31,512 nucleotides of DNA from a virus, in IMG/VR virus record IMGVR_UViG_3300009285_000970, positions 1-31,512 of that record; one strand, given 5' to 3'. The notes under the pieces are model-generated. The model did no database searches and was not told the origin of the DNA. It saw only the letters and a program-made list of their open reading frames with translations. Within the stretch, counting starts at the first letter, position 1. Each line of letters opens with the position of its first letter. The position numbers and the translations under genes were made by a program. Positions 5,242 to 24,394 of the stretch are shown here, in pieces.

Positions 5242-5673
5242 ATGGAAAATATAAAAGGTGCGATTCTTGCCGCGACTTTCACAGCAGCACTGTTCGCACT
5301 TGCAATTTGGATCGGAATCTCAACACAGCCCATTTACGCGAGTTCCCTTCAGGGAAACGATTATCAGGCCACCACAACGATGGCTGCTGTTACAGGCACG
5401 TTCGATGGGATTGAACTTCTTAAGACAGGACAAGGAGCCTTGGCTCAAGTCACTATCACGGGAGCTAACACGGGTAATATCATCTTCTACGACGCCACAA
5501 CGACGGATATTACCAAGCGTACTACGAGCCGGGCAACCTCAACGATAGTTATTGCTGATATTGCCGCTAGCGTGGCGGCGGGTACATACACGTTCGATGC
5601 CGAATTCTCCGACGGACTCTTAATGGTAAGAGCGTCAGGGATTGGGCCGACTTCGACGGTAATGTGGAGGTAG
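5242..5673 (+). CDS. Signal-anchored beta-rich virion or surface protein
   Basis: A 143-residue protein. Residues 1-30 form a signal peptide or signal anchor (NIKGAILAATFTAALFALA, with a possible cleavage region at IYASSLQ). The rest is Thr/Ser/Ala/Gly-rich beta sequence (ITGANTGNIIFYDATTTD; GTYTFDAEFSDGLLMV; PTSTVMWR) that looks like a small beta-sandwich such as a head decoration or fibre domain. A secretion signal is unexpected in a gene between portal and capsid. It is the first gene after its own leaderless promoter. Function is not established; a decoration protein or a protein exported to the host surface are both possible. Confidence 0.75.
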   Translation: MENIKGAILAATFTAALFALAIWIGISTQPIYASSLQGNDYQATTTMAAVTGTFDGIELLKTGQGALAQVTITGANTGNIIFYDATTTDITKRTTSRATSTIVIADIAASVAAGTYTFDAEFSDGLLMVRASGIGPTSTVMWR

Positions 5674-5694
5674 TTCATTGAAAACTAAATAAAA

Positions 5695-5759
5695 AACTGG
5701 AGAATCCCTTTTCGGGGCGGTGAATTCGCGCCCTGATAGTTCTCTCCAGTTCTATCAGG
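5695..5759 (+). other. Structured intergenic RNA with competing stems
   Basis: Two long perfect stems use overlapping territory. Stem A pairs AACTGGAGA (5695-5703) with TCTCCAGTT (5743-5751), enclosing a GGGCG/CGCCC hairpin (5715-5719 with 5729-5733). Stem B pairs CCTGATAG (5732-5739) with CTATCAGG (5752-5759). The 3' arm of A is the loop of B, and no base is left to bridge a pseudoknot, so A and B should exclude each other. This suggests a switch or attenuator ahead of the terminator-like hairpin at 5764. Confidence 0.55.
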
Positions 5760-5763
5760 TAGC

Positions 5764-5797
5764 GAACCGACCGCCTCACAAGGGCGGTCGTTCTTAT
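5764..5797 (+). terminator. Terminator-like hairpin
   Basis: CGACCGCC (5768-5775) and GGCGGTCG (5783-5790) form a perfect 8-bp GC-rich stem with a 7-nt loop, extended by GAA/TTC with one bulged C. A weak T-rich tail (TTCTTATT) follows. It lies between the gene ending at 5673 and the small gene starting at 5830. The interrupted T tract makes it a moderate rather than strong rho-independent terminator. Confidence 0.55.
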
Positions 5798-5829
5798 TAG
5801 GGAAACTTTATCAGGTTAGAAAATAAATT

Positions 5830-5976
5830 ATGTCCACACTCAATGATGCTAGGATGCCGAGTCTTAAAGACAAGCTCCTAGCTCAAGCGGATGGCGAAGT
5901 TGAGAAGAAAGAAAAAGAAGATGAGAAGGAAAAACAAGGTAAAGGTCGGAGGATTAAAAGCAAATCTAAAAATTGA
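5830..5976 (+). CDS. Small highly charged protein
   Basis: A 48-residue protein in the gap after the structured intergenic RNA. The N-terminus (STLNDARMPSLKDKLLAQAD) is followed by a run of Lys and Glu and ends in a basic tail (GRRIKSKSKN). The start has the usual AATTATG context and no Shine-Dalgarno site, and the stop overlaps a TTG that could extend the next gene by two codons. The Lys/Glu-rich helix followed by a basic end suggests nucleic-acid or scaffold interaction, but this is composition only. Confidence 0.6.
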   Translation: MSTLNDARMPSLKDKLLAQADGEVEKKEKEDEKEKQGKGRRIKSKSKN

Positions 5977-5978
5977 GT

Positions 5979-6518
5979 ATGCAACAGAATAAGGTGTTAG
6001 TAGGAGTTGGTATAGCAGTCTTGGCGATTGCCGCAGGGTGGATTGGAGGTAGTTTCAACGGATCGACTGATACAGTTACCCGTGAGGTGGTGAGAGAACT
6101 ACAACCAGTCATCGAGCAGGCGTTTGCAGCGGTTCCCGTTCTGAGCAGCCCGTTAGAGGTGAATGGTGTCGCAACGCATTATCTTGCACAGAAATTTCGG
6201 ACAGCGACTTCGACGCTCTCTTCGATACAGACGCCCGCTGCGACTACAACTGGAGAAGTGGTCTGTAGGTTGTTTACTGCCGCTTCATATGCGACAGGTT
6301 TTCAGCTTGCAACGGCTTCAACGTATGATGCAACTACCACCAACTTGGGATTTGTCTCAGTTGGGGCTAGTGCAGGGAATGCTTGGGTTAGTGCAACAAG
6401 TACGATGTTTGCTCCGAATCAATACATCAACTTGAAGCTCTCAACCTCTTCAGGAACTACTGTTGGAAGTGGTTTTGCGCCGACTGGTTCTTGCTACGCA
6501 AGACTTCAGGCGATGTAA
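5979..6518 (+). CDS. Membrane-anchored beta-rich virion or surface protein
   Basis: A 179-residue protein. Residues 5-24 (KVLVGVGIAVLAIAAGWIGG) form a transmembrane segment or uncleaved signal, followed by a short helix (TVTREVVRELQPVIEQAF) and then a Ser/Thr/Ala-rich beta domain with two cysteines (VVCRLF and GSCYARL) that could form a disulfide outside the cell. It has the ATST and ATTT repeats seen in the large fibre. The ATG at 5979 is preferred over the TTG at 5973, which overlaps the previous stop. Paired with the 5242 gene in architecture; precise role unknown. Confidence 0.75.
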   Translation: MQQNKVLVGVGIAVLAIAAGWIGGSFNGSTDTVTREVVRELQPVIEQAFAAVPVLSSPLEVNGVATHYLAQKFRTATSTLSSIQTPAATTTGEVVCRLFTAASYATGFQLATASTYDATTTNLGFVSVGASAGNAWVSATSTMFAPNQYINLKLSTSSGTTVGSGFAPTGSCYARLQAM

Positions 6519-6596
6519 GTTTACGGTTATCACACCTTACCAAAAGTGGAACACGTTTATTCTTATCGTACAAATAAAGAGAACAAAAAAACAGTT

Positions 6597-7178
6597 ATGA
6601 GTTCTGATACAAATCAAACCGAGGCACCGACGGAAAAAGGTGCAGGAGATGGGGGTGCTGCGACCATAGAGAAAATCGAATTGGCGAAAGCCGAATATGA
6701 GGAACTCGTTGGCCTTAAAGCAACCACTGGTTCTCTAAAAAGAGACTTGAAAGATGCTCAAAAGAAAATTGAGGAACTTTCAAAGCCAAAAGAAACTCCT
6801 AACGAAACCAAATCAGGCGACGTAGGTCTATTACAGAAAGGGTATCTCCGAATGTCGGGGATTACCGCTGAAGACGAAGTAGAATTTGCTCTTTCGACCG
6901 CTAAGAAATGGGGAATGGATGTGGATAAGATCGTAGACGATGAAGATTTCCAAGTGAAATTGAAGCGTATGCGCGACACCAAATCCAATACCGTAGCCAC
7001 CTCGAATGTTCGTGGAGGCTCCGGTACCTCTGAGGCGAAGAACACTCCGGAGTTTTGGAAGGCCAAAGGCACTCCACCAACTCCGACAGATGTTCCTGAC
7101 ACCAAACTTCGCAGGAAGATCATCCGCGAAATGACCGAAGCGGCAACGAACACGGGCATCAAGTTCTACAACGAATAG
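6597..7178 (+). CDS. Capsid scaffolding protein (putative)
   Basis: A 193-residue acidic protein directly before the major capsid gene, the classic position for the scaffold that shapes the prohead. The N-terminus is disordered (TNQTEAPTEKGAGDGG), then comes a heptad-like coiled coil (AKAEYEELVGLKATTGSLKR and on to KKIEELSKP, about residues 30-63), and a C-terminal charged helix (RRKIIREMTEAATNTGIKF) that could bind capsid. The ATG at 6597 is used instead of the upstream GTG at 6546, because it has the local start context and avoids an untypical basic leader. No protease domain is visible, so removal of the scaffold would be by exit or by a host or undetected protease. Confidence 0.72.
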   Translation: MSSDTNQTEAPTEKGAGDGGAATIEKIELAKAEYEELVGLKATTGSLKRDLKDAQKKIEELSKPKETPNETKSGDVGLLQKGYLRMSGITAEDEVEFALSTAKKWGMDVDKIVDDEDFQVKLKRMRDTKSNTVATSNVRGGSGTSEAKNTPEFWKAKGTPPTPTDVPDTKLRRKIIREMTEAATNTGIKFYNE

Positions 7179-7201
7179 GTCGGATAGACATAGGGCGTCT
7201 G

Positions 7202-7219
7202 GTCTTAGAAAGCTAAGAC
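7202..7219 (+). other. Hairpin immediately upstream of the capsid gene
   Basis: GTCTTAG (7202-7208) and CTAAGAC (7213-7219) form a perfect 7-bp stem with an AAAG tetraloop, ending 10 nt before the capsid ATG. There is no T tract, so termination is unlikely; 5' protection of a processed capsid mRNA or control of initiation is more plausible. Confidence 0.55.
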
Positions 7220-7229
7220 TTAACCAAAT

Positions 7230-8096
7230 ATGTCAGTAGCTAACACTGAAACATATGCAACAATTTACGACGACGCTCTACAGGCTCGCCTAGACCATCC
7301 ACAGACGTGGAAGGAAATGTGTGCGATAGAGATGACCAACACTCGTGTCATTTCTTCTTCGTACATGTCCACTACTCCGTCTATTCAGACGGTCTCTCGT
7401 GGTACGGGACACGCTGCACAAACCTACGCTGAAACAGCGGAAACGCTTACTATCAGCACCGGTCGTGACCTCGGTCTTATTCAAGACCTTGGCGATGCGG
7501 CACAGTCTCCGTGGACAACGGGGGCGATGCTCTTCGACCGTATTGGTAGTCTCTTAAACGAATTCATCGAGTCTAACGTCCTCGGGCAACACACCACATG
7601 GACGGACTTCGACAACGCTTCAATCGGTGGGAGTGCTGGAAACATCACAGTTTCCGCTTCCAACATCGATGACATCATTCGTGGTGTGAAGCGCGAGATT
7701 CGTGAAGGGAACGGCCAGTCGATGATGAACCAGAAGGGTGTCGGATTCGTATGGCGTGCAGCAGACTTCGAGTACTTGGAGGCGTTCGTACAAGCTAATG
7801 GCTTTGCGACCGCTGACACCGCTCTCAAAGAGGGAACGGTTGAAGGACTCCGCTACATGGGAGCCGACCATTACTGGTCGAACGACCACACGGCAAATCA
7901 CGTCTTCGCAGGCGTGAAGAAAATACAGCGCTTGGGTATTCTCAAGAACTTGTATGGTCGTGCGTTCACGATTCCATTCCCAGCAGGAGATTCAAACACG
8001 TTCTTCTCAGGAACGGCGTACTACTCTCGCGTTGACATCGGTCATTTGACGCCCACGGCTCACGCCGGAATCGTTTTTGACGTGAATGTCGCGTAG
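7230..8096 (+). CDS. Major capsid protein (HK97-fold, putative)
   Basis: The main shell subunit, 288 residues, a normal size for an HK97-fold protein without a long delta domain. Supporting signs are its place right after the scaffold, a helical N-terminal arm (TIYDDALQARLDHPQTWKEM), a central segment consistent with the spine helix and A domain (ITVSASNIDDIIRGVKREIR; FEYLEAFVQANGFATADTAL), and a C-terminal beta region (RVDIGHLTPTAHAGIVFDV). The start is AAATATG with no Shine-Dalgarno site. It is flanked by hairpins on both sides, which may help to stabilise its mRNA. The fold assignment rests on context and general pattern. Confidence 0.8.
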   Translation: MSVANTETYATIYDDALQARLDHPQTWKEMCAIEMTNTRVISSSYMSTTPSIQTVSRGTGHAAQTYAETAETLTISTGRDLGLIQDLGDAAQSPWTTGAMLFDRIGSLLNEFIESNVLGQHTTWTDFDNASIGGSAGNITVSASNIDDIIRGVKREIREGNGQSMMNQKGVGFVWRAADFEYLEAFVQANGFATADTALKEGTVEGLRYMGADHYWSNDHTANHVFAGVKKIQRLGILKNLYGRAFTIPFPAGDSNTFFSGTAYYSRVDIGHLTPTAHAGIVFDVNVA

Positions 8097-8098
8097 TT

Positions 8099-8155
8099 GT
8101 TCTCATCCTTTGCTTCGATACTAAAAATCGGGGCAAGGATATGGGAAGAACCCAT
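8099..8155 (+). other. Long hairpin downstream of the capsid gene
   Basis: ATCCTT (8105-8110) pairs with AAGGAT (8135-8140); after one bulged T the helix continues GC/GC, two G-U pairs and CGAT/ATCG (8116-8119 with 8127-8130), closing a 7-nt loop. GTTCT (8099-8103) and AGAAC (8147-8151) can close an outer stem, or ATGGG (8141-8145) can pair with CCCAT (8151-8155) next to the following start. There is no T tract. A 3' stabilising or processing structure that raises capsid output relative to downstream genes is the likeliest role. Confidence 0.6.
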
Positions 8156-8160
8156 AAAAT

Positions 8161-8925
8161 ATGAATTTCTATAATGTCACAGACCAATATAAATCACTCG
8201 TCCACGAATTGTGGAGTCTTTGCGATGCTGACATCACTTCATATCCTCTCGCAGAAGCGGCGCGGCGCGTTAATGCTTCACTCGAAGAACTTGTCGGAGT
8301 CATCATAAATAATGACGGAACGTGGGAATGGGACGACACCAATCACACCGACTTACCGAGGGGAACTGGAACGCTTGTGGAAGGACAGCAATCGTATTCT
8401 TTTGCGTCCGAGTACCTCCAAATAACTATGATAGAGATTAAGGACGTGAATGGAAATTGGGTCAAATTGAAGCCGCTTGATAAGGATGAGTTGGGCATGC
8501 TTTCTTCCGATGAGTATTTCGGCCTTACGAGCGGGAATCCCAAAACAGGCTTTACAGAATTCTATGACCAGCTCGGCGATTCCCTGCTTCTCTACCCTGC
8601 TCCAACATCAACCTACATAACTTTGGCGAGTGGACTCCGCATTTGGTTCAAGCGTACTATTGACCTGTTTACAGCCGCAGATACCACGCAAGAACCCGGA
8701 CTCCCCTCTACTCATCATGTAATGCTAGCTTTCATGGCGGCGATTCCATATTGCATGAAGTATCACAAGGATAGAGTGCCTCTCTACGAGAAAAAGGTGG
8801 ATGAAATGAAGGTGACGCTTCTAAAGCATTTCGCTCACAGGGAGAAGTCAAAGCGCAAGATTATGACTCCGAAAAGGATTGATTTTGGAGTTGGTGGTGG
8901 CGGACCAAATATACGATTTATATGA
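8161..8925 (+). CDS. Head-tail connector / tail accessory protein (putative)
   Basis: A 254-residue protein right after the capsid gene. It starts with helices (NVTDQYKSLVHELW; AEAARRVNASLEELV), continues with beta segments (YLQITMIEIKDVNGNWVKLK), and ends in a helical block with a basic C-terminus. This order and content match the adaptor proteins that sit under the portal in podovirus-type phages (the P22 gp4 class), which join head to tail. The assignment is by position and general pattern. The TGA stop overlaps the next ATG. Confidence 0.55.
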   Translation: MNFYNVTDQYKSLVHELWSLCDADITSYPLAEAARRVNASLEELVGVIINNDGTWEWDDTNHTDLPRGTGTLVEGQQSYSFASEYLQITMIEIKDVNGNWVKLKPLDKDELGMLSSDEYFGLTSGNPKTGFTEFYDQLGDSLLLYPAPTSTYITLASGLRIWFKRTIDLFTAADTTQEPGLPSTHHVMLAFMAAIPYCMKYHKDRVPLYEKKVDEMKVTLLKHFAHREKSKRKIMTPKRIDFGVGGGGPNIRFI

Positions 8926-9113
8926 GTCTCTCAGTATCAAATGACGCAAAGAATTCTCTTTCAATTACGAATGAGAGCAAGCCGAGTGGCGGCAAATGGA
9001 ACACTGATGCTACGAGAACATGGGCTGATGGCGGGACGTGGGGACAGCCCGGCACGTTCATAAAAAAGGACAGTAAAAACAATCTTTCTATTACTAACGA
9101 ATCAAAAACATGA
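8922..9113 (+). CDS. Small repeat protein with SLSITNES motifs
   Basis: A 63-residue protein whose two ends repeat: AKNSLSITNESKPS near residues 9-22 and SKNNLSITNESKT at residues 51-63, with a Trp/Gly-rich middle (TRTWADGGTWGQPGTF). The repeats differ at several third codon positions, so they are not a recent duplication. ATGA overlaps join it to both neighbours. It resembles a small tail or fibre-linker peptide; function unknown. The same LSITN peptide recurs in the 20-codon frame at 24397. Confidence 0.65.
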   Translation: MSLSVSNDAKNSLSITNESKPSGGKWNTDATRTWADGGTWGQPGTFIKKDSKNNLSITNESKT

Positions 9114-10210
9114 TTAAGAATATCTCAATTTCAATAGTGGTTTGCGTGTTTCTTTTCGTTGCTTTTGTGAATCTTCCTGCAAGTCTTTTCTCGATACGGC
9201 AGTATTTCACTGACGCTAGTTTCGGATCGACGCTCACTAACATTTCCTCCACGGATAATCTTGCAGACTTTCCCACTGTCTATAATGCAAACCAAACAGC
9301 ACTCAATAACGATAAGATAGAAGTCTCGACCACTACACTCCCCAATCTGGCTACCCTGCTTAATCTTGTCGCCGTGGGAACGATTACGACAGGAACGTGG
9401 AGCGCTGACGCTATCGCGGTTGCAAAAGGTGGTACTGGAACTACATCACCTACATCTAATTTAGTTATGCTCGGTAATGGTTCGAGTGGCTTAAAGACAG
9501 CCAACGGGTTTGGGACATCGGGACAATTCCTTACTTCTAATGGCAATGCGACCGCTCCTTCGTGGCAAACCTCTAGTATTGACCAGGGCATCCCCTACAC
9601 ATGGACAGCACATCATATCTTTTCAACACTTTTTGCAACGACTGCTTCGACTACTAATCTGACGTTTACTGGAATAACATCCTCACTTCTAAAAACCTCT
9701 AGTGTGGGGTTGACGCAAGCTGCTGTCGCAGGAACAGACTATCAACAACAACAGTACGTTTATGCAGATACAACTAACATCACGGCTAATAATGGTTTTG
9801 CCACTTCATCGAAGACTTTAGGAATACCTGCCGGTATCGCAACGGCGAGTTCTACTGTGGAAGTAACGGCAAATTTTACTCTTGCGGGTACTAACCCCGA
9901 AAATGGGACATTCTATTTAAAAACAGCGGCTGGAACCACCCTCATTTCGGGAACTCTTGCGGCCGCAGGTGGCACTCACACGGGTCATCTTCATATCAAT
10001 ATGTTTGCGGAGAACTCAACGAGCGTTCAGACTTCGATCTTGACTGCCTTTGCAAACATCATTACTACTAGTAGTGATTTTGTGGCCGTGTCTGCTGAGG
10101 GAACTTCTGCGGTCAACTTTGCAGCAGGACAAGGACTCGTCCTCGTACTTCAGGCTGACGCGGACGACACCTTAACAGTGCAAAACTTCACTATGAAATT
10201 CACACCTTAA
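9110..10210 (+). CDS. Signal-anchored tail fibre-like protein
   Basis: A 366-residue protein. Residues 2-24 form a hydrophobic signal or anchor (KNISISIVVCVFLFVAFVNL). Next come fibre-type repeats: GTITTGTWSADAIAVAKGGTGT, a block commonly found in phage tail fibres, then GNGSSGLKTANGFGTSGQFL and ATTASTTNLTFTG. The C-terminal part (YVYADTTNITANNGFAT onward) reads as a beta-sandwich. It is joined to the small repeat gene by ATGA overlap. A hydrophobic leader on a fibre is unexpected because fibres normally assemble in the cytoplasm. Confidence 0.72.
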   Translation: MIKNISISIVVCVFLFVAFVNLPASLFSIRQYFTDASFGSTLTNISSTDNLADFPTVYNANQTALNNDKIEVSTTTLPNLATLLNLVAVGTITTGTWSADAIAVAKGGTGTTSPTSNLVMLGNGSSGLKTANGFGTSGQFLTSNGNATAPSWQTSSIDQGIPYTWTAHHIFSTLFATTASTTNLTFTGITSSLLKTSSVGLTQAAVAGTDYQQQQYVYADTTNITANNGFATSSKTLGIPAGIATASSTVEVTANFTLAGTNPENGTFYLKTAAGTTLISGTLAAAGGTHTGHLHINMFAENSTSVQTSILTAFANIITTSSDFVAVSAEGTSAVNFAAGQGLVLVLQADADDTLTVQNFTMKFTP

Positions 10211-10211
10211 T

Positions 10212-11711
10212 ATGGGAAAAATCCTGATCTATAAACAGAATAGGTTTGATGGCGGGATTGCCAATGATATTCGCGCCGGAAAACCCAATCAGGCTCAACT
10301 CGTAAAGTATTTTGACATTCTCTCGCACCCTTCCTCGTTAAGGCCCCACAATTCAAGTGAAAGTGGTAATACGACCCCGACGACAGAAATACAAAGGTTT
10401 CTTTTTGCGAACTCCCTCCTATATGGCTATGGGGTTATTGATGGCGATTCAACAAGCGTACAGATTTATACCAAGAGCGATTTTTCAGGCGGTGCGTGGA
10501 ATACATTAGGTTCTTCTTCGACTGCAACAGTTACGCCTGACTTCAATCTTTTTGTGGCATATAAATATGGCGGAACTCTTTACTTATTTGGCGCGAGAGG
10601 TTCAGGCGGGACAGGCGCGATATGGAGGAACACTCCAGGCTCTGCCTTTGATGACAACCACCAAGCGTTGTCTTTCACAACGATAAATCAGGGCATTGTC
10701 CATTCCAAAGACAATATACTTTATATTCCTTATGATAATATCATTGCCAAAAACAACGCGGGAACTTGGAACACGACGGCATTGACGCTAACCGCTGACT
10801 ATCTTTGTTCCTCTATCTGCGAGTATGGAAACTTTCTTGCCATTGGATGTTCGGCGGCCGCGACGGCAGGTAGACCTCATTCCCGTGTTTTCCTTTGGGA
10901 TAGAGACAGCACTGTTTCAACCCTTACTGAAAGTATTGAGGTCGGACCTGAAATCCTAATGGCGTTGCATGAATATGAGGGTTCTCTGATTTCAATTGGC
11001 TATCTTGGCAAAAGAGTCATTGCTCGGCAATATCAGGGTGCTGCTGGTTTTGTAAAAATTGCCGAAATTAGGTCTACGGCAGTTGCAACTGCAATAATTA
11101 ATCGCCACAGTCAGAAAGCGAATGGTCGTATCTATTTCCTAGCTAACTTGACTATCGACGGAACTCAACATGAAGGTGTGTGGAGTTTTGGCCGTAGTCT
11201 TAATGGTGAGATGGCGTTCTCTTTCGACCGTACCGCCAATAACGACACTGACGTTAGTTCGTTACAGAGTTTTCACTTTGAGACTGTGTCAGGAATTGAT
11301 TATATGTTTGTCGCTTATACTGATAACTCGTCAAACGAGCAAGTATCAAAAACGAGTGAAACCTCAACGGACTTTACCGCTAGCTCGGTATGGGAATCTA
11401 CTATTATTAATTTTGATGATGCATCTGCGAAGAAGAAGTTATTAGCTGTCACCGTTATACATGAGCCATTGCCTACTGCGGGAAGTGTTACACTAAAATA
11501 CAAGGCTGATGCTGATAGTTCGTGGACTACTATCTACACCCACACAACGGATGACAGTATTTCTCACTCTGCTATTAACATTGAAAGTTCCGGCGCAACT
11601 CTACCTGAATTCAAGGAACTACGGCTACAAATCACATCAACAGGTGGTGCAGTCATAAATGGCATTAAGGCTTTGGCAGAAATTACTGGAAAGGATATTT
11701 ATAGCGTATGA
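10212..11711 (+). CDS. Tail nozzle / beta-propeller-like protein (putative)
   Basis: A 499-residue soluble protein with many short beta strands and Gly/Asn turns. It opens with KQNRFDGGIANDIRAGKPNQ and a segment (YFDILSHPSSLRPH) of the kind seen at the N-terminus of phage nozzle or DNA-stabilisation proteins (P22 gp10 class); repeated blocks such as LFVAYKYGGTLYLFGARG and SKDNILYIPYDN look like propeller blades. The C-terminal 120 residues are a separate beta-sandwich (GSVTLKYKADADSSWTTIYT). It lies in the tail module after the connector and supports a short-tailed morphology. The name is a pattern-based inference. The start is TTAATATG, 1 nt after the previous stop. Confidence 0.5.
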   Translation: MGKILIYKQNRFDGGIANDIRAGKPNQAQLVKYFDILSHPSSLRPHNSSESGNTTPTTEIQRFLFANSLLYGYGVIDGDSTSVQIYTKSDFSGGAWNTLGSSSTATVTPDFNLFVAYKYGGTLYLFGARGSGGTGAIWRNTPGSAFDDNHQALSFTTINQGIVHSKDNILYIPYDNIIAKNNAGTWNTTALTLTADYLCSSICEYGNFLAIGCSAAATAGRPHSRVFLWDRDSTVSTLTESIEVGPEILMALHEYEGSLISIGYLGKRVIARQYQGAAGFVKIAEIRSTAVATAIINRHSQKANGRIYFLANLTIDGTQHEGVWSFGRSLNGEMAFSFDRTANNDTDVSSLQSFHFETVSGIDYMFVAYTDNSSNEQVSKTSETSTDFTASSVWESTIINFDDASAKKKLLAVTVIHEPLPTAGSVTLKYKADADSSWTTIYTHTTDDSISHSAINIESSGATLPEFKELRLQITSTGGAVINGIKALAEITGKDIYSV

Positions 11712-12025
11712 CTCTCGAACAAAGAATCGCAAGACTAGAGGGGCTTTTATCGCAACTTATCGCATCCGATCGCTATGTCTTTCATAAACATATACAAATG
11801 TTAGACGGTAGGAATGTTCAGTTAGGGCTAACTACGGGTACAAAGATAGGTCTTTCAGGTGGTTCAACTGGTGAAAAAATCGGCCTATGGGGTACTACTC
11901 CGGTAGTGCAACCAAGTGCCATTGCAGATGTAGCAGGTGGTCTCTCCGATTCAGACGGGACTGCGCGTGCTAAAATCAACTCAATCCTCGCCGCGCTACG
12001 CCTTCCAGGATTTATTGATACATAA
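11708..12025 (+). CDS. Tail-tip / fibre trimerisation-type protein
   Basis: A 105-residue protein. An N-terminal helix (TLEQRIARLEGLLSQL) precedes a beta-rich part containing the module (T/L)xxGTKIGL...GEKIGLWGTTPVVQPSAIADV followed by ARAKINSILAALRLPGFI. The GTTPVVQP...INxxLxxLRxxGxI pattern is common at the C-termini of phage tail-fibre and baseplate proteins. Here it is a stand-alone protein, coupled to the nozzle-like gene by ATGA overlap, and probably caps or trimerises a tail component. Confidence 0.65.
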   Translation: MTLEQRIARLEGLLSQLIASDRYVFHKHIQMLDGRNVQLGLTTGTKIGLSGGSTGEKIGLWGTTPVVQPSAIADVAGGLSDSDGTARAKINSILAALRLPGFIDT

Positions 12026-12028
12026 AAT

Positions 12029-13480: not shown

Positions 13481-13481
13481 T

Positions 13482-14917: not shown

Positions 14918-15409
14918 TTATCTGTATTGGTTTTTCATAATCAAGGTTTTCAGTGCTTTCTCGATAGGCCATCTAGCTATTACAATTCTATGCCAAAGGG
15001 TGCCTGGTTTGATGGAAACAATCTCCGACCACTCCGCGAGTGTCAATGTCTTTCCTCTAGAAGTAAATCTAGGAATGTTCCTAGTATTCCTTGCTTGCTC
15101 CTTCAACGAAACCCATCTGCAATTCTCTCTACTATAGTCGCCTATTGGATTAATACGATCTATCTGCGTGTTTTTCTCCCCATATTTGTTGACGTGGGCG
15201 AGATAAGAAGTACTCATATCTCTCCAAAATTCGTCAAAGGTATTCCACTGACATTTAACTCCTTTTGCTCCATAACGGGAATAACTAATGTTGTTAGGAT
15301 TCTTACAACGAGCACGGAGGGTAAAAAAGATATTATTCGGGCGTTTTTGCGCAAGTCCATGCTTATAGGCAGGATTATTTTTTCCAAACATTCCTTTTCG
15401 CTTTTTCAT
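14918..15409 (-). CDS. HNH homing endonuclease (NUMOD-type), antisense in the late operon
   Basis: A 163-residue free-standing homing endonuclease. In order: an N-terminal NUMOD3-like stretch (GMFGKNNPAYKHG), a zinc-free HNH core of the phage type (RCKNPNN...YGAKGVKC...IDRINPIGDYSRENCRW, about residues 34-99) and a C-terminal DNA-binding helix-turn-helix (TLTLAEWSEIV...WPIEKAL). It is encoded on the strand opposite to every other gene in the late region, as expected for a mobile gene that cuts and copies itself into intronless alleles. AAGGG lies 10 nt before its ATG, and A rather than T is at -1, both unlike its neighbours. A long frame on the + strand of the same segment is its shadow. Confidence 0.85.
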   Translation of the reverse strand: MKKRKGMFGKNNPAYKHGLAQKRPNNIFFTLRARCKNPNNISYSRYGAKGVKCQWNTFDEFWRDMSTSYLAHVNKYGEKNTQIDRINPIGDYSRENCRWVSLKEQARNTRNIPRFTSRGKTLTLAEWSEIVSIKPGTLWHRIVIARWPIEKALKTLIMKNQYR

Positions 15410-15427
15410 TTTTTCTTGCCCTTACAA

Positions 15428-15470: not shown

Positions 15471-15515
15471 TAATAATGGTTTAATCTTAATACCAATCCC
15501 CCTAAAAAGCAACCT

Positions 15516-16322
15516 ATGACTGTAGATACTAAATTACTCAAAGTTGTAGAAGATAAAATCATCTTCGCAGAACGGTTGGCTTCAATAATGCAAGATTCCT
15601 TTACGAAAAAGGAGTTTGTAGCGGCATTTGAGCAGGTAATCAAGATTTTCCTCGCTCTCAAAGAGAATAACACGAAAGAGATGTCTTCTTTCAGAGAAGA
15701 ATACGAGACCGCAAAAAAAACAATGGGTAAAGAACATCATCAAATGATAACGATGCTTGAAACGAAACTCAATGCCTCTCTAGCCGAAAAACTCTCACTT
15801 ATTGATGCACGACTTCGTGAATTAAAGGATGGGGAAGATGGTGAGGATGGAAAGGACGCAGACGAAGATAAAATCTTGCAGGATGTACTCGCTCGCATCT
15901 CAATCCCTAAAATTGAAGAGATTGAACAGGATTTGCCGAAGTTGGGAGACCGTATCCGGGATGGACTCGAACTACTGCCCGAAGGAGAGAAGCTCCGTAT
16001 TGAGGCAATCGAGGGATTACAAAAAATACTCGACGAGCTTCGCCAGATTCGCGCTCAAAGGTTCGGGAGTGGAGGCACAAGTTCAATGGGAGTAGCCGCC
16101 GCCATGAGCAACATCGTGAAAAAAGAAACTCCCACGGGGGATATAGATGGCGTGAATCTTTCTTACACGGTTACGAAACCAATAAACGCAGTTCTTTCTT
16201 TTGCTATCAACGGAATGGTCATAATGGATTCGGAGTATACGATTGCAGGAAGAACGATTACGTTCACTACGGCAATACCATCTGCTTATTCTGGGCAGAC
16301 TTTTAGAATTGTTTATGTTTAG
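15516..16322 (+). CDS. Coiled-coil fibre-base protein with C-terminal beta domain
   Basis: A 268-residue protein. The N-terminal 185 residues are helical coiled coil (TKKEFVAAFEQVIKIFLALK; LEKTKLNASL-like heptads), interrupted around residue 107 by a short acidic DGEDGEDGKDAD run that looks like a degenerate collagen-type linker. The last 65 residues (ETPTGDIDGVNLSYTVTKP; AINGMVIMDSEYTIAGRTITF) form a beta domain common on phage tail fibres and receptor-binding proteins. It overlaps the giant fibre start by 8 nt and is probably its partner or adaptor. A TGgTTTAAT at 15477-15485 may serve as a weak promoter after the HNH insertion. Confidence 0.65.
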   Translation: MTVDTKLLKVVEDKIIFAERLASIMQDSFTKKEFVAAFEQVIKIFLALKENNTKEMSSFREEYETAKKTMGKEHHQMITMLETKLNASLAEKLSLIDARLRELKDGEDGEDGKDADEDKILQDVLARISIPKIEEIEQDLPKLGDRIRDGLELLPEGEKLRIEAIEGLQKILDELRQIRAQRFGSGGTSSMGVAAAMSNIVKKETPTGDIDGVNLSYTVTKPINAVLSFAINGMVIMDSEYTIAGRTITFTTAIPSAYSGQTFRIVYV

Positions 16323-19300
16323 TCATTTATTCGTAGGTCTTTTTGCTGCCGCAGCAATGCTATGGGGCGGTCTTTTTTACATTGAGGAAAAACAACCACA
16401 ATTCGGACTTTCGACTTTCATAACAGCACAAGGCGGTACTGGCACTTCCTCTCCAAGCGGCATTCTGTACGGTAGTGGCTCAAGCAATCCTCTCAAAACT
16501 GTTTCATATTCTGGGGCTTCGTTCGATACCTCGACGGGTATTTTAACAGTGACTGAAGGCGGCTCCGGCTTCTCCACCACCTCCGCCGACTATTGGGACA
16601 TAACCAAAGCACGCTGGGCGACCACCTCGTCTGATTACTGGATAGGGACGTACAACAAAGGCTTTTTCTTTTCTACGACTTCGACTGACTATTGGGAGAC
16701 GCAACAGGCGGCAAGGAGTTCGGGATTTTCTACCACGTCTGCCGATTACTGGGTCACTGCTTCCACAACGATTCCTAAAACGACACTCGCTCAAACGTGG
16801 AACGCCTTACAGACATTCGCATCAGGATTTCTCTCACAAGCATCTTCCACCGTAGTCGGCTCGCTTACAGTCACTGGAGGAGTTGTCGGAAATGCTTCGA
16901 CTGCGACGGCACTTGCCGCGAATGGTGCGAACGCATCGGCGGGCAATGCTATTTTGGGTGTGGACGCTTCGGGTGCAGCAGAGGGCGCGTTCGATGTATG
17001 GACAGAGGCGGAGAATACTTCGGCTGGCTATACATCAAATACCGGCACTGTCACCTCTATCGCCACGACATATCCAATTCAGGGCGGAACTATCACGACT
17101 ACCGGCACGCTCTCATTTCCTGCGACCTCAACCCTCTACGGAACAGGGACATCAGGACAGGTACTCATGTGGTCTGGAAGTACACCAGTGTGGGCTGCAA
17201 CTTCAACTGGCACGACATACACTGGGACATATCCAATCGTTGTAACTGGCAGCGTCATTTCAACTCCCCTTGCTTCAACAACCGTCGCTCAAACCTACGG
17301 TACACCCCAGATAGGCGCACTTACATTTGCTACGTCCTCCGATACGAACATCTTGCTTAACATCTCGAATACCAATGGCGCTTTCTCCTTCACGCCAGCA
17401 TGGGCAGGAACGCTTGCTGATGCACGCATCACGTCCGCTTCAACATGGAATGCGAAAGAACCTGCAATCTCCGCAGGGACAATAAATGATTACTGGCGCG
17501 GTGACAAAACGTTCCAAGCTACTTCCACGTTGCGCCTCACAAAAAGCCAGATTACCGACTTCGGAACCTACGAAAACCCCCTTACTTTCAACTATCCTCT
17601 TACACGTTCAGTGGACACCATATCTTTTCCTGCAACTTCCACTTTGTACGGCACGGGAACGAACGGACAGGTCTTGATGTGGTCGGGGACTACGCCAATA
17701 TGGGCGGCGACTTCTTCGGTAGCAGGAAGCGGTGCTTGGCCCTTCACTCCGACCACGAATTTCGGGGTCGCTGTGCAATCTACCTCGACTCCCATATGGA
17801 GTACGGCCGGACTTCAAGCATCGTCTACGAGCCATTTTCTCAATGCAACGATTTGGGGCAATCTCAATGTAATTGCTGGCCAGTCCTACCAGTATAACGG
17901 AGCCAATATCATTAACGCTTCAACGACCTTATTTAATTACAATTTTGGCAAACAAGCTGGTAACCTCACCAACACTGGTACTAACAATACGATGGTCGGC
18001 TACGATGCGGGTAATGACATGGCTGTTGCGTCTGCAAATACTGCTGTTGGTTCTGCTGCTTTCAATAATTTCATTGGCGATGGCAGTGATGACCTTAACA
18101 ATGTCGCTATAGGCGATACAGCGTTGGGCGGATTGCTCTATGGTTCTGAAAACACGGCTGTTGGTGCCACGTCTTTAGCTACGGCAACGACAACCAGTGC
18201 TAACACGGCTATCGGTATTGGCGCTCTTGAATTTAGTGGCTATGTGGCGACTGGTAATACATTCGTCGGCACTCACGCAGGAGCATTTGCAGACCCGGAT
18301 AATTCTACTGCTGTTGGCTATTACGCTCTCTCTGGCCCCTCAGCAATAAGTTTTGGTGACCAGGGTTTCAGTATCACGGACTCAATCGCTCTCGGCTACC
18401 GTGCCGGTGAAGATATGGCTACATCGTCAAACAATATCCTCATCGGTGAACAAACGATGATGCCCAACGCTACTGACAGCAATATGCTCAACATCTCCAA
18501 CTTGATTTGGGCCACAGGACTTACCGACCGTTCTACTCCAACTGCGACTGTTTCGGCAGGCAACGTCGGTATTGGCACGAGTACGCCCGGTACGCTCTTA
18601 TCTTTGCAAGGTGTCGGCAATTTCCATACAGCGACCTCGACGTTTACAAGTACGGGCGGAATCAATCTAACAGGTGGATGTTTTGCGATAGGTGGAACAT
18701 GTGTAGGGGGAGCGGCAGACGGCACGGCCTCCTCGACTCTTCTCGGCGACAGGAATACCTGGACTGGCCTCAACGTTTTTTCTAACGCCACCTCCACACT
18801 CTTCACCTCAACGACCGCATGGATTACTAACCTCTTCATAGGGGCTGATACCATCGCGGAATATATCTCTGACACTATTGGCGCGGGAGTCTCTGGCAAC
18901 ACGGAAACCGACATCACTGTAACGTATGATGACGCAGATAATACGTTCGATTTCGTCGTTGACACATTGCCGAATCTCACGGGGACACTCGATTACGACA
19001 GCGGTGGTACGGGCACTTCAACAGCGGCAACATTGGGCAATGTCCTCTACTGGAATGGCTCTAATTGGGAAGGGCTTGCAACATCGTCACTCGGTATCAC
19101 TGCCGCAGGTGATGGCACCGCGTCCTCGACACTGCTCTCGGATAGAAATACGTGGACTGGTCTCAATGTATTCAGCAACGCCACCTCAACTTTGTTCACC
19201 GCAACAAGCGCATGGATAACAAAGCTTGCCAACCTTGCCTCGGCAGGATTCGTAAAGACTTCGAGTGACGGGACGCTCTCGGTGGATACAACGACCTACG

Positions 19301-22300
19301 AAAGCGGCCTCACGGCTGGCGACGGACTGACCCGTACATCAAATGATTTCGACTGCGACACCGCTTCGGGTTCGGTGTTCGGCTGTCTCCTTTCCCTGGA
19401 TTGGACTGACCTCAAAACCAAAATCTCCTCTTCCACGATAGACACCGAAAGCGAGCTTGAAACCTTTTTGACCGACGTAACGAACGTCTTCACGAACAAC
19501 GACGGTGCGCTCGCGGATGATGACCTGACGAACGACTCCATAGAGAATTTGAGCGATGTGGCCGCGATGACCGAGAATTATGGCGACCTTTTGGGATGGA
19601 ACGGTACGGCGTGGGCTGATTTTGCGACCTCTTCACTCGACCTTAACGTATCCGGTCTCGGCTCGTACGACTTCGGAGATTGGACGTGCAATGGGACTGC
19701 TTGCACACTTGATGCTACATATCTCACAGGTAACCAGACGATAACGCTTTCAGGGGATGTCTCTGGCTCCGGTGCGACTGCTATCACAACTACTCTCGGA
19801 CTTGAAAAAGTATTCGGCAAGCACCTTTCTACGACGACGAACAGCTTTGCGAATGGCGAGATACTCACTTTCGTTTCCGCTACCGATGACTTCGAGGGAA
19901 AGACGTGCGCGGAGATAACGGGAAGTGCCGACCTATGCGATGGAAGTGACGCGACGGGAAGCGGCGCACCGTGGCCATTTGATTCAACAACGTGGAGCGC
20001 CGCAGTTGCCGCAGGAACCTCCACCAACTACAGGAACACAGGAATAGTCGCGGCCTCGTCTACGTTCGCGGGGAACGCAACCTCTACCAATCATACGGTG
20101 GCAGGAAACTTCATTGCCACAGCAATCACCTCTGCACTCGGCTTATTCGGCTCTGACGGACTTCTTGCCGAATACGCAGGGGCATCTTGTACCAACCAAT
20201 TCGTGCGCTCTCTAAACGGCGCGGGAGCCGCTACTTGCGCCACCGTCGCAACTACTGACGTTGCTTCGGGTATAACACTCGACACGGAGTGGGATACGGA
20301 GAGCGAAGTGCAGACTGCATGGGGAAGCGTGAACATTCTTTTGGAAACGGAAATAGACGCCTCTTCCGAACTCGCCGCTCTGATGGACGACGAAACGGGT
20401 GGCACCGGCGTTCTTGTCTTCAACGCATCTCCGACGTTCACCGGACTTTCGGTAATCCCTTTCGCCTCCTCAACTGCCACAGCCGTTTCAGGTACGGGAT
20501 TCTTTGGCACAGCCTCAACGACGAACCTCACCGTGTCGAGCGCACCAAATGGCGTGCTCGTTACGAACAATACGGGAGTTGCAACGGCATCATCGACGCT
20601 CGGTCTTGATAAAATCCCGACGTGTGCGTCGATAACCGGCTCCGCTGCGCTCTGCGATGGCGACGATGCAACGGGTGCAGGTAGTGCATGGCCTTTCACT
20701 CCCGCAACCTACTATGGTCAAGGCGTACAATCGACTACCACCGCTTTGCAACTTAACGGGACACCGTTCTCTCTTTTCGCGTCCTCCACTGCGCTTTTCG
20801 AGCAGGCATCTACCACAAGACTCACAATCAGCGACGGAATTTATCTCGCAGGGAGCCGGATCACTGACTTCATAGCTGACGCCACGATAGATTTAGTTTC
20901 AGGCGCACTACGTGTTGTTGACCTTGTTTGTACGAACTGCATTGACGACACCGAAATCACTACCCACGCCGGAACAGCCCTTTCAGCCGACCTTGAAGAA
21001 GAAGTCACCGAGGGATCTCTGGCAGATAGCACCATCGTCAGTGCAGACATTAAAGATGGGGAAATAGTTAATGCCGACCTAAGTGCGACGGCCGCTATCG
21101 CGTACTCTAAGCTCAATCTTGTAGGTTCTCTACTCGGTCGCGACCTGTCGACCACTACCGCGTTCGCCAATGGTGAACTTCTTTCCTATGTTTCCGCAAC
21201 GGATAATTTCTCATCCCTCACTTGTGCCGAGATAACCGGTTCGGCCGACCTCTGTGATGGGGGAGACGCAACAGGAGCAGGCGGCGGCTCATGGCCGTTC
21301 ACCACTACCGATACCAACTTCGGTGTGACACCCCAACAATCCACCACTACGCCCGAGTGGTTCAAGGGAAATGGCACGTGGGGAATGTTCGCGTCTTCGA
21401 CGAGCGTGTTTGATAACGCCACAACATCTCTTTTCACAACAGGGACGGCATGGGTAAATACACTCCTACGTCCCGATGCAGACGACGGAGCCGCGCTTGG
21501 AGCCACAAACATCGGATGGTCTGACCTCTTTCTTGCAGATAGCGGTGTGATAAGTTGGGGCGGCCAAGCGGATATTATAGGAAATGTGTCTCTCACTCTA
21601 CGCTCTGACGGTGAACTTATTTTTAATGGTAGCGATGGTGGGAGTGGAAACTTCGGGGCAGCGGGAGTTAAGCTATTCGGTGCTGATGGTGTCCTCACCA
21701 TGCTCGGCCTCGGCGACGGCGCAGACGAATCCTACACCACCGACCTCGATAATGGTGGCGCGAACGTCATAACATTCGGGACAGGAAGCGGAGCAACAAC
21801 GCTTGATTGGGATGCTTTTACTCTCGCCAAGTTTGCCCAAGCATCCACCACCATCTTCTCGTCATATGGCCCCGCGTACTTTGGGGCATCTGCCACAAGT
21901 TCCTTTTCAACCGCAGGAGCATTGACACTCACGACACCGCTTCTCGTCGCTTCAGGAGGCACAGGAGCCGCAACGCTCACAGGGCTCCTACAAGGCAATG
22001 GAACGTCCGCAATCACAGGTATCACCAATTCTTCGACTGTAGGGCAGATTCTGAGGGTTACGGGTGCTTCTACCTACGCATGGGGAGCACTCAACCTCGA
22101 CGATACAGACGCTTTCACCGGCACATTGCCCGTCGCCAACACGCAACTCACTGCTGGGCGGTCGCTCACGCTTTCGACGGATGATGTGCTTGCCGACGTA
22201 GAACTTTACACCGACACAAAATGCATCTGGTTTGAAGACCCGACCGCAGATGACGACTTCAAGAGTGTCTGGGCAAACAAAACTGCAAATGCTTTCGACC

Positions 22301-22539
22301 TTTCCGAAATATGGGCGGAGAGCGACCAGACGGTTACCTTCATGCTTCAGGTGGATGATGGTACTCCCGCAGATGTTGACAGCGTAGACCTTGCTCCCGC
22401 AGCTGGAGAAGCCGAGGATACGTCACTGAACGGTGACACACAGGTAGCCGCAGGGGAAGAACTCGACCTTGCCATCACGAGTGTAGCCAGTACACCGACC
22501 TACGTTTCAATTTGCTGGACGGGAGCGTGGGCAGACTAA
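16315..22539 (+). CDS. Giant modular tail fibre / adhesin with N-terminal anchor and YadA-like head repeats
   Basis: A 2074-residue protein, about a fifth of the window. The start is ATG 16315, overlapping the previous stop; it opens with a hydrophobic anchor (HLFVGLFAAAAMLWGGLFYI). Modules in order: TSADYW repeats (about residues 80-150); a pair of SFPATSTLYGTGTxGQVLMWSG blocks (near 266 and 436); YadA-like head repeats (about 555-710: VGYDAGND, TAVGSAAF, VAIGDTAL, TAVGATSL, TAIGIGAL, TAVGYYAL, IALGYRAG); GNVGIGTSTP; two ASSTLLxDRNTWTGLNVFSN repeats (near 802 and 933); three CAxITGSAxLCDGxDATG repeats (at 1198, 1437, 1637), each followed by WPF; and a C-terminal beta domain (about 1963-2074) with LQVDDGTPADVDSVDL. 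It is expected to be a trimeric receptor-binding fibre. TST-rich blocks of this type are associated with Patescibacteria (from memory, not searched). Confidence 0.82.
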   Translation: MFSHLFVGLFAAAAMLWGGLFYIEEKQPQFGLSTFITAQGGTGTSSPSGILYGSGSSNPLKTVSYSGASFDTSTGILTVTEGGSGFSTTSADYWDITKARWATTSSDYWIGTYNKGFFFSTTSTDYWETQQAARSSGFSTTSADYWVTASTTIPKTTLAQTWNALQTFASGFLSQASSTVVGSLTVTGGVVGNASTATALAANGANASAGNAILGVDASGAAEGAFDVWTEAENTSAGYTSNTGTVTSIATTYPIQGGTITTTGTLSFPATSTLYGTGTSGQVLMWSGSTPVWAATSTGTTYTGTYPIVVTGSVISTPLASTTVAQTYGTPQIGALTFATSSDTNILLNISNTNGAFSFTPAWAGTLADARITSASTWNAKEPAISAGTINDYWRGDKTFQATSTLRLTKSQITDFGTYENPLTFNYPLTRSVDTISFPATSTLYGTGTNGQVLMWSGTTPIWAATSSVAGSGAWPFTPTTNFGVAVQSTSTPIWSTAGLQASSTSHFLNATIWGNLNVIAGQSYQYNGANIINASTTLFNYNFGKQAGNLTNTGTNNTMVGYDAGNDMAVASANTAVGSAAFNNFIGDGSDDLNNVAIGDTALGGLLYGSENTAVGATSLATATTTSANTAIGIGALEFSGYVATGNTFVGTHAGAFADPDNSTAVGYYALSGPSAISFGDQGFSITDSIALGYRAGEDMATSSNNILIGEQTMMPNATDSNMLNISNLIWATGLTDRSTPTATVSAGNVGIGTSTPGTLLSLQGVGNFHTATSTFTSTGGINLTGGCFAIGGTCVGGAADGTASSTLLGDRNTWTGLNVFSNATSTLFTSTTAWITNLFIGADTIAEYISDTIGAGVSGNTETDITVTYDDADNTFDFVVDTLPNLTGTLDYDSGGTGTSTAATLGNVLYWNGSNWEGLATSSLGITAAGDGTASSTLLSDRNTWTGLNVFSNATSTLFTATSAWITKLANLASAGFVKTSSDGTLSVDTTTYESGLTAGDGLTRTSNDFDCDTASGSVFGCLLSLDWTDLKTKISSSTIDTESELETFLTDVTNVFTNNDGALADDDLTNDSIENLSDVAAMTENYGDLLGWNGTAWADFATSSLDLNVSGLGSYDFGDWTCNGTACTLDATYLTGNQTITLSGDVSGSGATAITTTLGLEKVFGKHLSTTTNSFANGEILTFVSATDDFEGKTCAEITGSADLCDGSDATGSGAPWPFDSTTWSAAVAAGTSTNYRNTGIVAASSTFAGNATSTNHTVAGNFIATAITSALGLFGSDGLLAEYAGASCTNQFVRSLNGAGAATCATVATTDVASGITLDTEWDTESEVQTAWGSVNILLETEIDASSELAALMDDETGGTGVLVFNASPTFTGLSVIPFASSTATAVSGTGFFGTASTTNLTVSSAPNGVLVTNNTGVATASSTLGLDKIPTCASITGSAALCDGDDATGAGSAWPFTPATYYGQGVQSTTTALQLNGTPFSLFASSTALFEQASTTRLTISDGIYLAGSRITDFIADATIDLVSGALRVVDLVCTNCIDDTEITTHAGTALSADLEEEVTEGSLADSTIVSADIKDGEIVNADLSATAAIAYSKLNLVGSLLGRDLSTTTAFANGELLSYVSATDNFSSLTCAEITGSADLCDGGDATGAGGGSWPFTTTDTNFGVTPQQSTTTPEWFKGNGTWGMFASSTSVFDNATTSLFTTGTAWVNTLLRPDADDGAALGATNIGWSDLFLADSGVISWGGQADIIGNVSLTLRSDGELIFNGSDGGSGNFGAAGVKLFGADGVLTMLGLGDGADESYTTDLDNGGANVITFGTGSGATTLDWDAFTLAKFAQASTTIFSSYGPAYFGASATSSFSTAGALTLTTPLLVASGGTGAATLTGLLQGNGTSAITGITNSSTVGQILRVTGASTYAWGALNLDDTDAFTGTLPVANTQLTAGRSLTLSTDDVLADVELYTDTKCIWFEDPTADDDFKSVWANKTANAFDLSEIWAESDQTVTFMLQVDDGTPADVDSVDLAPAAGEAEDTSLNGDTQVAAGEELDLAITSVASTPTYVSICWTGAWAD

Positions 22540-22540
22540 T

Positions 22541-24394
22541 ATGAAATTCAAGAAAACTATCGTCGGAGCGATACTTGTTCTCGGAGCCGCTTCTGTACCT
22601 GTGGTCGAAGTGCCGGAGAATTACTACGTCCGCGAAGGCCCGGCCGCAGAGACGCAATTCTCGGAAGTGGAGAGGTCGCACGACATCAAAGGGCTCACGG
22701 AGGCGCATATCATCGGAGAGGCGTGCTACAACGAATTTCGCATGAAGGGAGAAAAGACGATACGCAAGAGAATAGATTGCGAGGAGCATTTCAAGCGTCG
22801 GGACATTCCCGGATACCCGATGCCCGCGATGGAGGGGAGGATATGGGGAGGCTACAGCACCTACCTTTTCGACACCCCGTCGGGAGATTTGGACGAAGGC
22901 TTCTACGCGAAAAGCGAACGGAATATAAAAATACCGGCTGCACAGGCAACTCTCGAAGCGCTGACACCAACAGCGGACGCTGCTGTAGCTTTCAGCGCAC
23001 AGACCAGTCTTTCAGCCGCCGCCGTAAACACCGTTTCATATAGTCACACAGCACCGGCAAGCGGCACTCTGGTCGTTGCTTCTCTTCTTCAGGATGGAAG
23101 TGGTGCTCAAGATCGGAAAACCAATTACTGTACATATAATTCGGTGGATATGTTTTACACATTGCACAACAATTATGATGTTGGAGGTTTTACTATCACC
23201 GTTTTTTCTCTTCACAGTCCTACTTCTGGTGCGAATACGGTCTTTTGCCAATTTAACGATACAGCCCAATCCGCAAACGTGCCGGGTGACGGAACTTCTA
23301 TCGCAACCTCCTTTTCGGGAGCTGACTTAATGCTCCCTGTTGAAGCCACGGCAACTAATAGTGGTTTTTCGGCGATTGCAAGCGTAAGTATTACAACAAA
23401 ACTGGCTAATTCTCTCATAGCCGACTTCATGCTTACCGATGAAGTAAACACGAGCGATATAATTCCGGCTGGAGACCTCCACACAGAGGGTGTTGAAATC
23501 TCTTTAGTAGGTGAGAATGCCTTATTTGGCTATGCGGGGCCAGTTGTATCCGCTGGAGCAACGACAACAAGCTGGACTTGGACAGGAGACGAACAATGGG
23601 CTCACTCTGCACTTTCAATTAAAACCCCTTGCCCCGATTTTACTTTCTGTACAGACATTATTACGACGACAGGAACTACGACTTGGAACGCCCCTGCCTT
23701 AACTAATGTAACGAGTGTCAGCGCTGCCTGTTGGGGCGCAGGTGGTGGTGGTGCAGGTGATGCCGCAACGGGAAATGGTGGAAGTGGTGGCGGTGCGTAT
23801 GCCTCTACTACAAATATCACCGTTACTGGGAACAGCCTAACTGTCTACGTCGCGCCAGCCGCAGCCGAAGAAACCAATGGCGAAGCTTCTTATATCTACA
23901 ACGGAGCCACCTATAGTCCGATAGCTTGTGGGGGCACCGCTACGGCGACAATTACGGGAGGTGCAGGCGGAACTACAGCATGTTCAGTAGGAAGTGCTGC
24001 TGAATCTGCTGGTGGCGCAGGTGGTAATGGAACTGATAGTGGAGATACTGGGGGTGGCGGTGGCGGAGCCGGTGGGCCTGACGGTACAGGTTCAGTTGGT
24101 GCCGCCGGAGATGGTTCTTCTGGTGGAACAGGAGGTGCAGGTGACGCTGGTTCCGGTGGGCCAGGTGGTTCTGGAGGTACTATTGCAGGCGGTAATCAAG
24201 GTGCAACTCATTTAGACGGGAGCGGTGGTGGGGGAGGTGGTGACGACACATTTATAGGAGGTTACGGGGGATATGGAGGCGGAGGCGGGGGTGGAGAGGG
24301 TAGTGGAGGTCTTGGTGGACAAGGCATGTGCTTGATTTCTTACACTCCGGTTGCTGATGCGGGAGGAGGCCGCCGCATCCTATGGCCGCAATAA
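22541..24394 (+). CDS. Glycine-rich secreted adhesin / receptor-binding protein
   Basis: A 617-residue protein with a signal-like N-terminus (KFKKTIVGAILVLGAASVPVV), a charged Cys-containing segment (EACYNEFRMKGEKTIRKRID), a beta domain (about 145-365), then from about residue 374 a glycine-rich module starting TTTWNAPALTNVTSVSAACWGAG and GGSGGGAYASTTNITV, the pattern of glycine-rich tail-fibre tip domains. Residues about 490-596 are nearly all Gly, Ser, Asp and Pro in GG-spaced runs, as in fibre adhesins built from polyglycine-II helices (the phage S16 gp38 type). The very short C-terminus after it (RRILWPQ) is basic. It follows the giant fibre by 1 nt (TAATATG) and is probably its tip or a second receptor binder. 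Confidence 0.7.
   Translation: MKFKKTIVGAILVLGAASVPVVEVPENYYVREGPAAETQFSEVERSHDIKGLTEAHIIGEACYNEFRMKGEKTIRKRIDCEEHFKRRDIPGYPMPAMEGRIWGGYSTYLFDTPSGDLDEGFYAKSERNIKIPAAQATLEALTPTADAAVAFSAQTSLSAAAVNTVSYSHTAPASGTLVVASLLQDGSGAQDRKTNYCTYNSVDMFYTLHNNYDVGGFTITVFSLHSPTSGANTVFCQFNDTAQSANVPGDGTSIATSFSGADLMLPVEATATNSGFSAIASVSITTKLANSLIADFMLTDEVNTSDIIPAGDLHTEGVEISLVGENALFGYAGPVVSAGATTTSWTWTGDEQWAHSALSIKTPCPDFTFCTDIITTTGTTTWNAPALTNVTSVSAACWGAGGGGAGDAATGNGGSGGGAYASTTNITVTGNSLTVYVAPAAAEETNGEASYIYNGATYSPIACGGTATATITGGAGGTTACSVGSAAESAGGAGGNGTDSGDTGGGGGGAGGPDGTGSVGAAGDGSSGGTGGAGDAGSGGPGGSGGTIAGGNQGATHLDGSGGGGGGDDTFIGGYGGYGGGGGGGEGSGGLGGQGMCLISYTPVADAGGGRRILWPQ

Follow-up and report, generated by a model that had tools for sequence, protein, structure and literature searches.

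Tailed phages are textbook cytoplasmic assemblers, and the question raised by this locus is why proteins encoded among its structural genes should begin with hydrophobic segments of the kind that direct proteins to a membrane. The locus, IMG/VR virus record IMGVR_UViG_3300009285_000970, is 31,512 bases long and was analyzed over its full length; it is referred to here as the window. The best 15-residue Kyte-Doolittle mean (KD15) served as the test, and a value of about 1.9 or more was taken as an N-terminal hydrophobic segment. Among the 34 window genes scored, such segments were found only in the genes starting at 5242, 5979, 9110, 16315, and 22541, designated SP1 to SP5 (KD15 of 2.36, 2.63, 3.01, 1.91, and 2.37, respectively), and in two genes outside the structural block, at 27907 (2.45) and 29385 (2.52). 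By the same test, TerL, the portal, the scaffold-like protein, the major capsid protein (MCP), and the remaining tail genes have no N-terminal segment. An initial annotation of this DNA had named the same five proteins as starting with a signal or anchor segment; this is confirmed, with the gene coordinates intact and no other structural gene sharing the property.

The window was assigned to a tailed dsDNA phage (Caudoviricetes) by its TerL, MCP, and portal genes, and its lineage comprises uncultivated viruses with short tails, some of which have been found with Patescibacteria. TerL (139–1338; this and the genes that follow are on the + strand unless noted) matches Pfam Terminase_3C (3e-11) and phrog_2 (2.6e-34). 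The portal (3126–4955) was assigned by synteny and through its relatives, which weakly match the phrog_332 head-tail adaptor and the phrog_156 portal, and the MCP (7230–8096) through relatives that match the phrog_267 major head protein (2.9e-12); the window's own MCP and portal proteins gave no direct family match. SP1 (5242–5673) and SP2 (5979–6518) belong to the head module and are followed by the scaffold-like protein (6546–7178). SP3 (9110–10210) is a tail-fibre-type protein with an N-terminal membrane anchor. Farther downstream are g15516 (15516–16322), an unexported protein that is probably a fibre base, SP4 (16315–22539), a 2074-residue fibre with a hydrophobic N-terminus, and SP5 (22541–24394), a Gly-rich fibre with a basic hydrophobic N-terminus. 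A small SET-domain-like protein near the portal (1810–2241, +) is conserved in 39 loci and is an odd member of a structural cluster. The late region also holds three likely homing-endonuclease-type ORFs (14918–15409, −; 26655–27116, +; 28718–29308, −), HNH/AP2-like by eye, and in relatives such ORFs occur at other points, for instance between scaffold and MCP in L018. No tRNA or Rfam family was found in the window.

The initial annotation had proposed a comparison with related phages. About 180 loci were gathered by TerL, portal, MCP, and MCP-alignment searches of viral contigs together with one genome-contig search, and the uniform segment test covered 162 loci with 2,777 ORFs. The segments are conserved in the homologues of SP1 (32 of 38), SP2 (41 of 42), and SP3 (23 of 25), 96 of 105 in total. 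They are absent from TerL (0/124), portal (0/99), scaffold (0/90), and MCP (0/104), and likewise from the families of g8161 (0/87), g10212 (0/36), g12029 (0/44), and g15516 (0/27). The premise that structural proteins normally lack such segments is supported, with 0 of more than 600 genes in the core families, and the same count under the same test rules out an artefact of chance or composition. At least one segment gene lies between portal and MCP in 53 of the 79 loci that contain both, and exactly two lie there in 44. Among TerL relatives, segment ORFs number 193 of 1,298 inside the clade versus 17 of 528 outside it (Fisher p 8e-15). When the latter figure, for ORFs of at least 100 residues from TerL relatives outside the clade, is taken as the background rate, the binomial probability of at least five segments in about 20 structural genes is approximately 4e-4.

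Two starts in the window are ambiguous, namely that of SP2 (5973 TTG or 5979 ATG) and that of SP4 (16243 TTG or 16315 ATG), and both ATG starts place the segment at the N-terminus. Wrong start codons as a general cause were rejected because the segment stays in frame across homologues that are 20–50% identical. On the MCP tree, the window falls in a 40-member clade in which anchors are present in 38 members and missing from two, both of them short fragments. The neighbouring branches are mixed, and at least five state changes are forced on the tree, so inheritance of the segments strictly with the capsid gene is not clean. In one relative of the unexported type (L227, the record of L168), the product of 10346–11158 (−) is a membrane protein with an SPFH/band-7 look (HflK/prohibitin-like, by eye).

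The segments of the SP1, SP2, and SP3 families have median lengths of 19–20 residues and are flanked by unequal charge. The net charge is +1.42, +1.82, and +0.81 before the segment and −0.65, −0.18, and −1.0 after it, respectively (Wilcoxon p 1.5e-5, 1.5e-5, and 1.3e-3), which is the pattern of insertion with the N-terminus in and the C-terminus out. By length and positive-inside bias, the three families classify as putative signal-anchor (type II) membrane proteins. In the SP1 and SP2 families, A-X-A cleavage motifs occur at chance level, no more often than in shuffled sequences, and these proteins therefore look like uncleaved anchors; SP1 of the window has a possible site (IYA/SS, the slash marking the point of cleavage) and was called an anchor. 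SP4 and SP5 of the window have no strict A-X-A site and were for this reason also called anchors. SP4 has the weakest KD15 of the five and no Lys or Arg ahead of its segment, that is, no basic n-region. All five window proteins thus look like uncleaved membrane anchors.

The fibre encoded directly after g15516 has a segment in nearly all relatives. In many of them it is a cleavable Sec signal of textbook form, such as MKHVLWFVLASLLFGTAVYA/AP in L110 and MKKLLLAIALLALPATALA/AP in L163. Most of these same-position fibres combine a basic n-region, a hydrophobic core, and an A-X-A motif, and strict A/V/S/T-X-A sites were counted in 16 of 26 fibre N-termini versus 10.6 ± 2.2 after shuffling. From the statistics of hydropathy, charge, and cleavage motifs on which the export calls rest, we consider membrane insertion or export with an outward topology very probable. 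The two small proteins outside the structural block (27907–28641 and 29385–29744, both +) have canonical cleavable Sec signals, ASA/AT and AGA/QQ, respectively. In L129, a homologue of the former (236 residues, with a segment) takes the place of SP2, flanked by portal and scaffold. Small exported proteins of about 100–140 residues are also encoded 3′ of the exported fibre in L110 (18696–19016) and L090 (13200–13622).

The nature of the exported proteins is best illustrated by their homologues. An SP3 homologue that lacks the anchor (L181) matches tail, minor-tail, and fibre PHROGs and, more weakly, cyanophage tail fibres, and the anchored SP3 retains a motif common to ordinary tail fibres. SP4 of the window has no PHROG match, and SP5 matches just Pfam Gly_rich_2 (5.6e-6) and an uncharacterised PHROG. 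Among the exported fibres of relatives, matches were obtained to tail fibre families (L149, L092), to tailspike/virion structural proteins (L129, L159), to the phage hyaluronidase family (L128), and, in L110, to a ConA-like lectin (Pfam Laminin_G_3). The L110 lectin has a predicted cleavage site at FASA/, and the residue directly beyond it, residue 22, corresponds in alignments to residue 2 of the unexported lectins of L107 (33% identity, 3e-29) and L040 (31%, 2e-32). Since their matches in the relatives are to tail fibres, tailspikes, and lectins, the exported fibres appear to be virion-type receptor-binding modules that have been given export signals. The natural reading is that the signals were added to ordinary modules, a direction of change that we infer.

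The C-terminal domain of SP4 is 78–79% identical to that of an exported protein in another phage lineage (L101, 11077–12570) and 48% identical to that of an exported protein in L099 (10842–13004). Both of these phages carry capsid genes different from the window's, which suggests that exported-fibre modules move between lineages. Besides the lineage of the window, the trait extends to some phages that have fibre modules in common with it (L101, L099).

The two head-module proteins are less readily assigned. The AlphaFold model of SP1 has an N-terminal helix (residues 2–26) followed by a small beta-sandwich (pLDDT 81.5), and that of SP2 has an N-terminal helix (3–23) and a jelly-roll-like ectodomain (pLDDT 79.4). 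Fold searches gave weak, general matches, to a nucleoplasmin-like sandwich for SP1 and to the Pgp3 C-terminal domain, CBM6, and a cyanophage short-fibre CBD for SP2, and the homologues of SP1 and SP2, all scanned against PHROG, did not converge on any one family. Because SP1 and SP2 are encoded between portal and scaffold, a role in the virion fits them at least as well as surface display. Bare SP1 homologues of 84–92 residues without an anchor occupy the same position in L107, L144, L149, L157, and L167. The SP2 ectodomain contains 1.68 Cys per 100 residues, at least two in 38 of 41 homologues, and its conserved Cys pair fits a disulphide that may form outside the cytoplasm. Between SP1 and SP2 lies a stretch of about 300 bp without a gene (5674–5972, +), and many relatives have a gap of 120–300 bp there. 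It includes a terminator-like hairpin (5768–5790, +; nine pairs, seven of them GC, then T-rich); terminator-like sites in the region are not above chance.

The segments, their conservation, their absence from the core genes, and the existence of segment-free homologues can be read directly from the sequences, and it is their function that must be explained. We propose that beta-rich proteins of receptor-binding type, encoded in the late cluster as SP1–SP5, have acquired N-terminal Sec-targeting segments. SP1–SP3 would insert as single-pass anchors with the N-terminus inside and the C-terminal domain beyond the cytoplasmic membrane, and SP4 and SP5 of the window would probably insert in the same way. 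In many relatives, the signal peptide of the distal fibre is instead predicted to be cleavable, and the fibre would be set free or retained on the outside. The exported proteins would reach the surface of the infected cell, where their likeliest role would be to bind and occupy receptors in cis, which would keep progeny and competing phages from being lost to a dying cell or its debris. Alternatively, they could otherwise alter what the surface of the infected cell binds. The explanation as a whole, in which late export places the fibres on the surface of the infected cell and masks its receptors, has in our estimate a probability of about 0.47; display as the final function and masking as its purpose are the parts that we hold at below even odds. 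Physically, surface display is a simple solution, and it would lend itself to the masking of receptors late in infection. It counts against display that no unexported distal fibre is obvious in the exported phages; if SP1–SP5 stay on the cell, g15516 would be a candidate for the receptor-binding protein of the virion. The idea that an arms race shows itself in faster divergence was rejected, as SP1–SP3 have diverged no more than the unexported g12029 and g15516.

It is possible, if on the unlikely side, that the exported proteins instead end up on the particle. Heads and tail bases would be made in the cytoplasm, and the fibres, including those of the head, would be stationed on the outward side of the membrane. 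They would be added to the particle as it leaves the cell or afterwards, perhaps together with a patch of membrane or an incomplete envelope. The genes sit within the head and tail cluster, unexported homologues are found at the same positions (L107, L157, L181), SP3 retains its ordinary fibre motif, and the exported proteins are mostly those expected on the particle exterior while the unexported ones form the core. The fibre itself looks split. The end of g15516 overlaps the start of SP4 by 8 nt, and in exported relatives g15516 encodes 179–298 residues; in most of them, the start of the exported fibre gene is no more than about 10 nt from the g15516 stop. In two other loci, the g15516 homologue runs on into a longer protein, in L107 (1013 residues) fused to the fibre and in L064 (625 residues). 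Three features are better accounted for by joining outside the cytoplasm than by surface display: the placement of the genes among those for assembly, the retained fibre motif, and the splitting of the fibre. However, the homology behind the split fibre is weak, with two fused cases and profile scores of 13.8 and 18.1 bits, and some probable exterior proteins of anchored phages have no signal, such as a Gly-rich ORF at the SP3 position (L090, 3590–4576). To our knowledge, no tailed phage matures in this way. That fibres have been split from a virion base and exported by Sec, with particles completed outside the cytoplasm or with membrane-held fibres, is accordingly graded here as rather unlikely.

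An apparent lysis module also argues against maturation outside the cytoplasm. It spans 24351–26489 (+) and comprises a protein with a membrane segment at its C-terminus (24351–24893; KD19 2.37) and a 528-residue lysin candidate with C-terminal membrane segments (24903–26489; KD19 2.26). N-terminal homologues of the latter in relatives weakly match papain-like peptidases, and its hydrophobic end looks like a fused holin. In L021, a separate small membrane protein adjoins the lysin. An envelope stage in assembly, one of the explanations offered by the initial annotation, or a budding stage appears to be disfavoured by this lysin/holin-type module.

The segments might also, instead of acting as export signals, be hydrophobic attachment helices that fix fibres and head proteins within the virion or at the portal or tail, or that serve genome delivery. 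The location of the genes in virion modules, the chance-level cleavage motifs of SP1 and SP2, and the missing basic n-region of SP4 fit such a role. We nevertheless regard it as improbable, as the charge bias follows the positive-inside rule, same-position fibres carry canonical cleavable signals, the homology of the L110 lectin begins exactly after its predicted cleavage site, the SP2 ectodomain is Cys-rich, and the unanchored homologues manage without the helix.

The initial annotation had favoured phage adhesins displayed on an episymbiotic host so as to alter its attachment to its own host. Membrane-targeted proteins of virion type with a predicted outward ectodomain are upheld by the present analysis, and the broader class of explanations in that annotation, a stage at the membrane or fibres or adhesins located outside the cell, is therefore reasonable. 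An episymbiotic host, by contrast, is a tentative proposal, and an altered attachment a conjecture. Missing ribosomal protein bL30 is a known feature of Patescibacteria. Two anchored MCP relatives come from bins of 1.2 and 0.9 Mb without bL30, one of them labelled Parcubacteria, and the single genome-bin relative without anchors comes from a 4.3 Mb Methylococcaceae bin with bL30 present. This is suggestive of a small-genome or Patescibacteria host for the anchored relatives, the phage contigs having been placed by binning. The exported domains are of lectin and fibre type, including the ConA-like lectin, and ConA-like lectin genes of groundwater Patescibacteriota phages have been listed as possible adhesion aids in a survey (PMC12911398). 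However, the lectin and fibre homologues are ordinary unexported phage proteins, and the genes lie within the assembly cluster of an apparently lytic phage. Five other phage-like loci in bins of the Patescibacteria phylum, one of them on an 818 kb contig, have structural genes without signals; the trait is therefore lineage-specific, and a rule for all Patescibacteria phages was rejected. Moreover, neither the SP4 C-terminal domain nor the 27907 protein was found in 287 Patescibacteria genomes, a search that had no known-matching genome as a positive control. Overall, adhesin delivery is very improbable. Capture of an adhesin from the host likewise has no support, the same absence from the 287 genomes being weak evidence for want of that control.

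Exported phage proteins are known from other systems. T5 Llp and Cor of HK022/phi80 are exported to the cell envelope and protect progeny or exclude other phages; the window proteins may be likened to them by description, but Llp and Cor are small dedicated lipoproteins or envelope proteins, whereas those of the window are the fibres themselves. Filamentous-phage coat proteins and plasmavirus envelope proteins are put into the host membrane before assembly. Those viruses extrude or bud, in contrast to the window, which is a tailed phage by terminase, portal, and MCP and has an apparent lysis module. The fibres, tailspikes, and LamG lectins of Caudoviricetes belong to the same families and occupy the same genome position as the exported fibres of the relatives; the known members are made in the cytoplasm and have no signals, whereas those of the relatives and the window have anchors or signal peptides. 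No precedent for exported tail fibres in a tailed phage was found within the open-access literature searched. The giant surface adhesins of Patescibacteria, for which host recognition has been proposed, are, like the window fibres, large proteins with signal or transmembrane segments (PMC13059738). In the reported case they are chromosomal, whereas the SP4 C-terminal domain is found in two other phage lineages.

A conserved export of fibre and head-fibre homologues throughout a lineage would imply that some tailed phages complete part of the virion beyond the cell boundary or cover infected cells in their own receptor-binding domains. Either would bear on the infection of very small bacteria, possibly including episymbionts, whose viruses are little known. 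A caution also follows for the lectins described as adhesion genes in phages of Patescibacteria, at least some of which, as the L110 case suggests, may be exported lectins derived from fibres.
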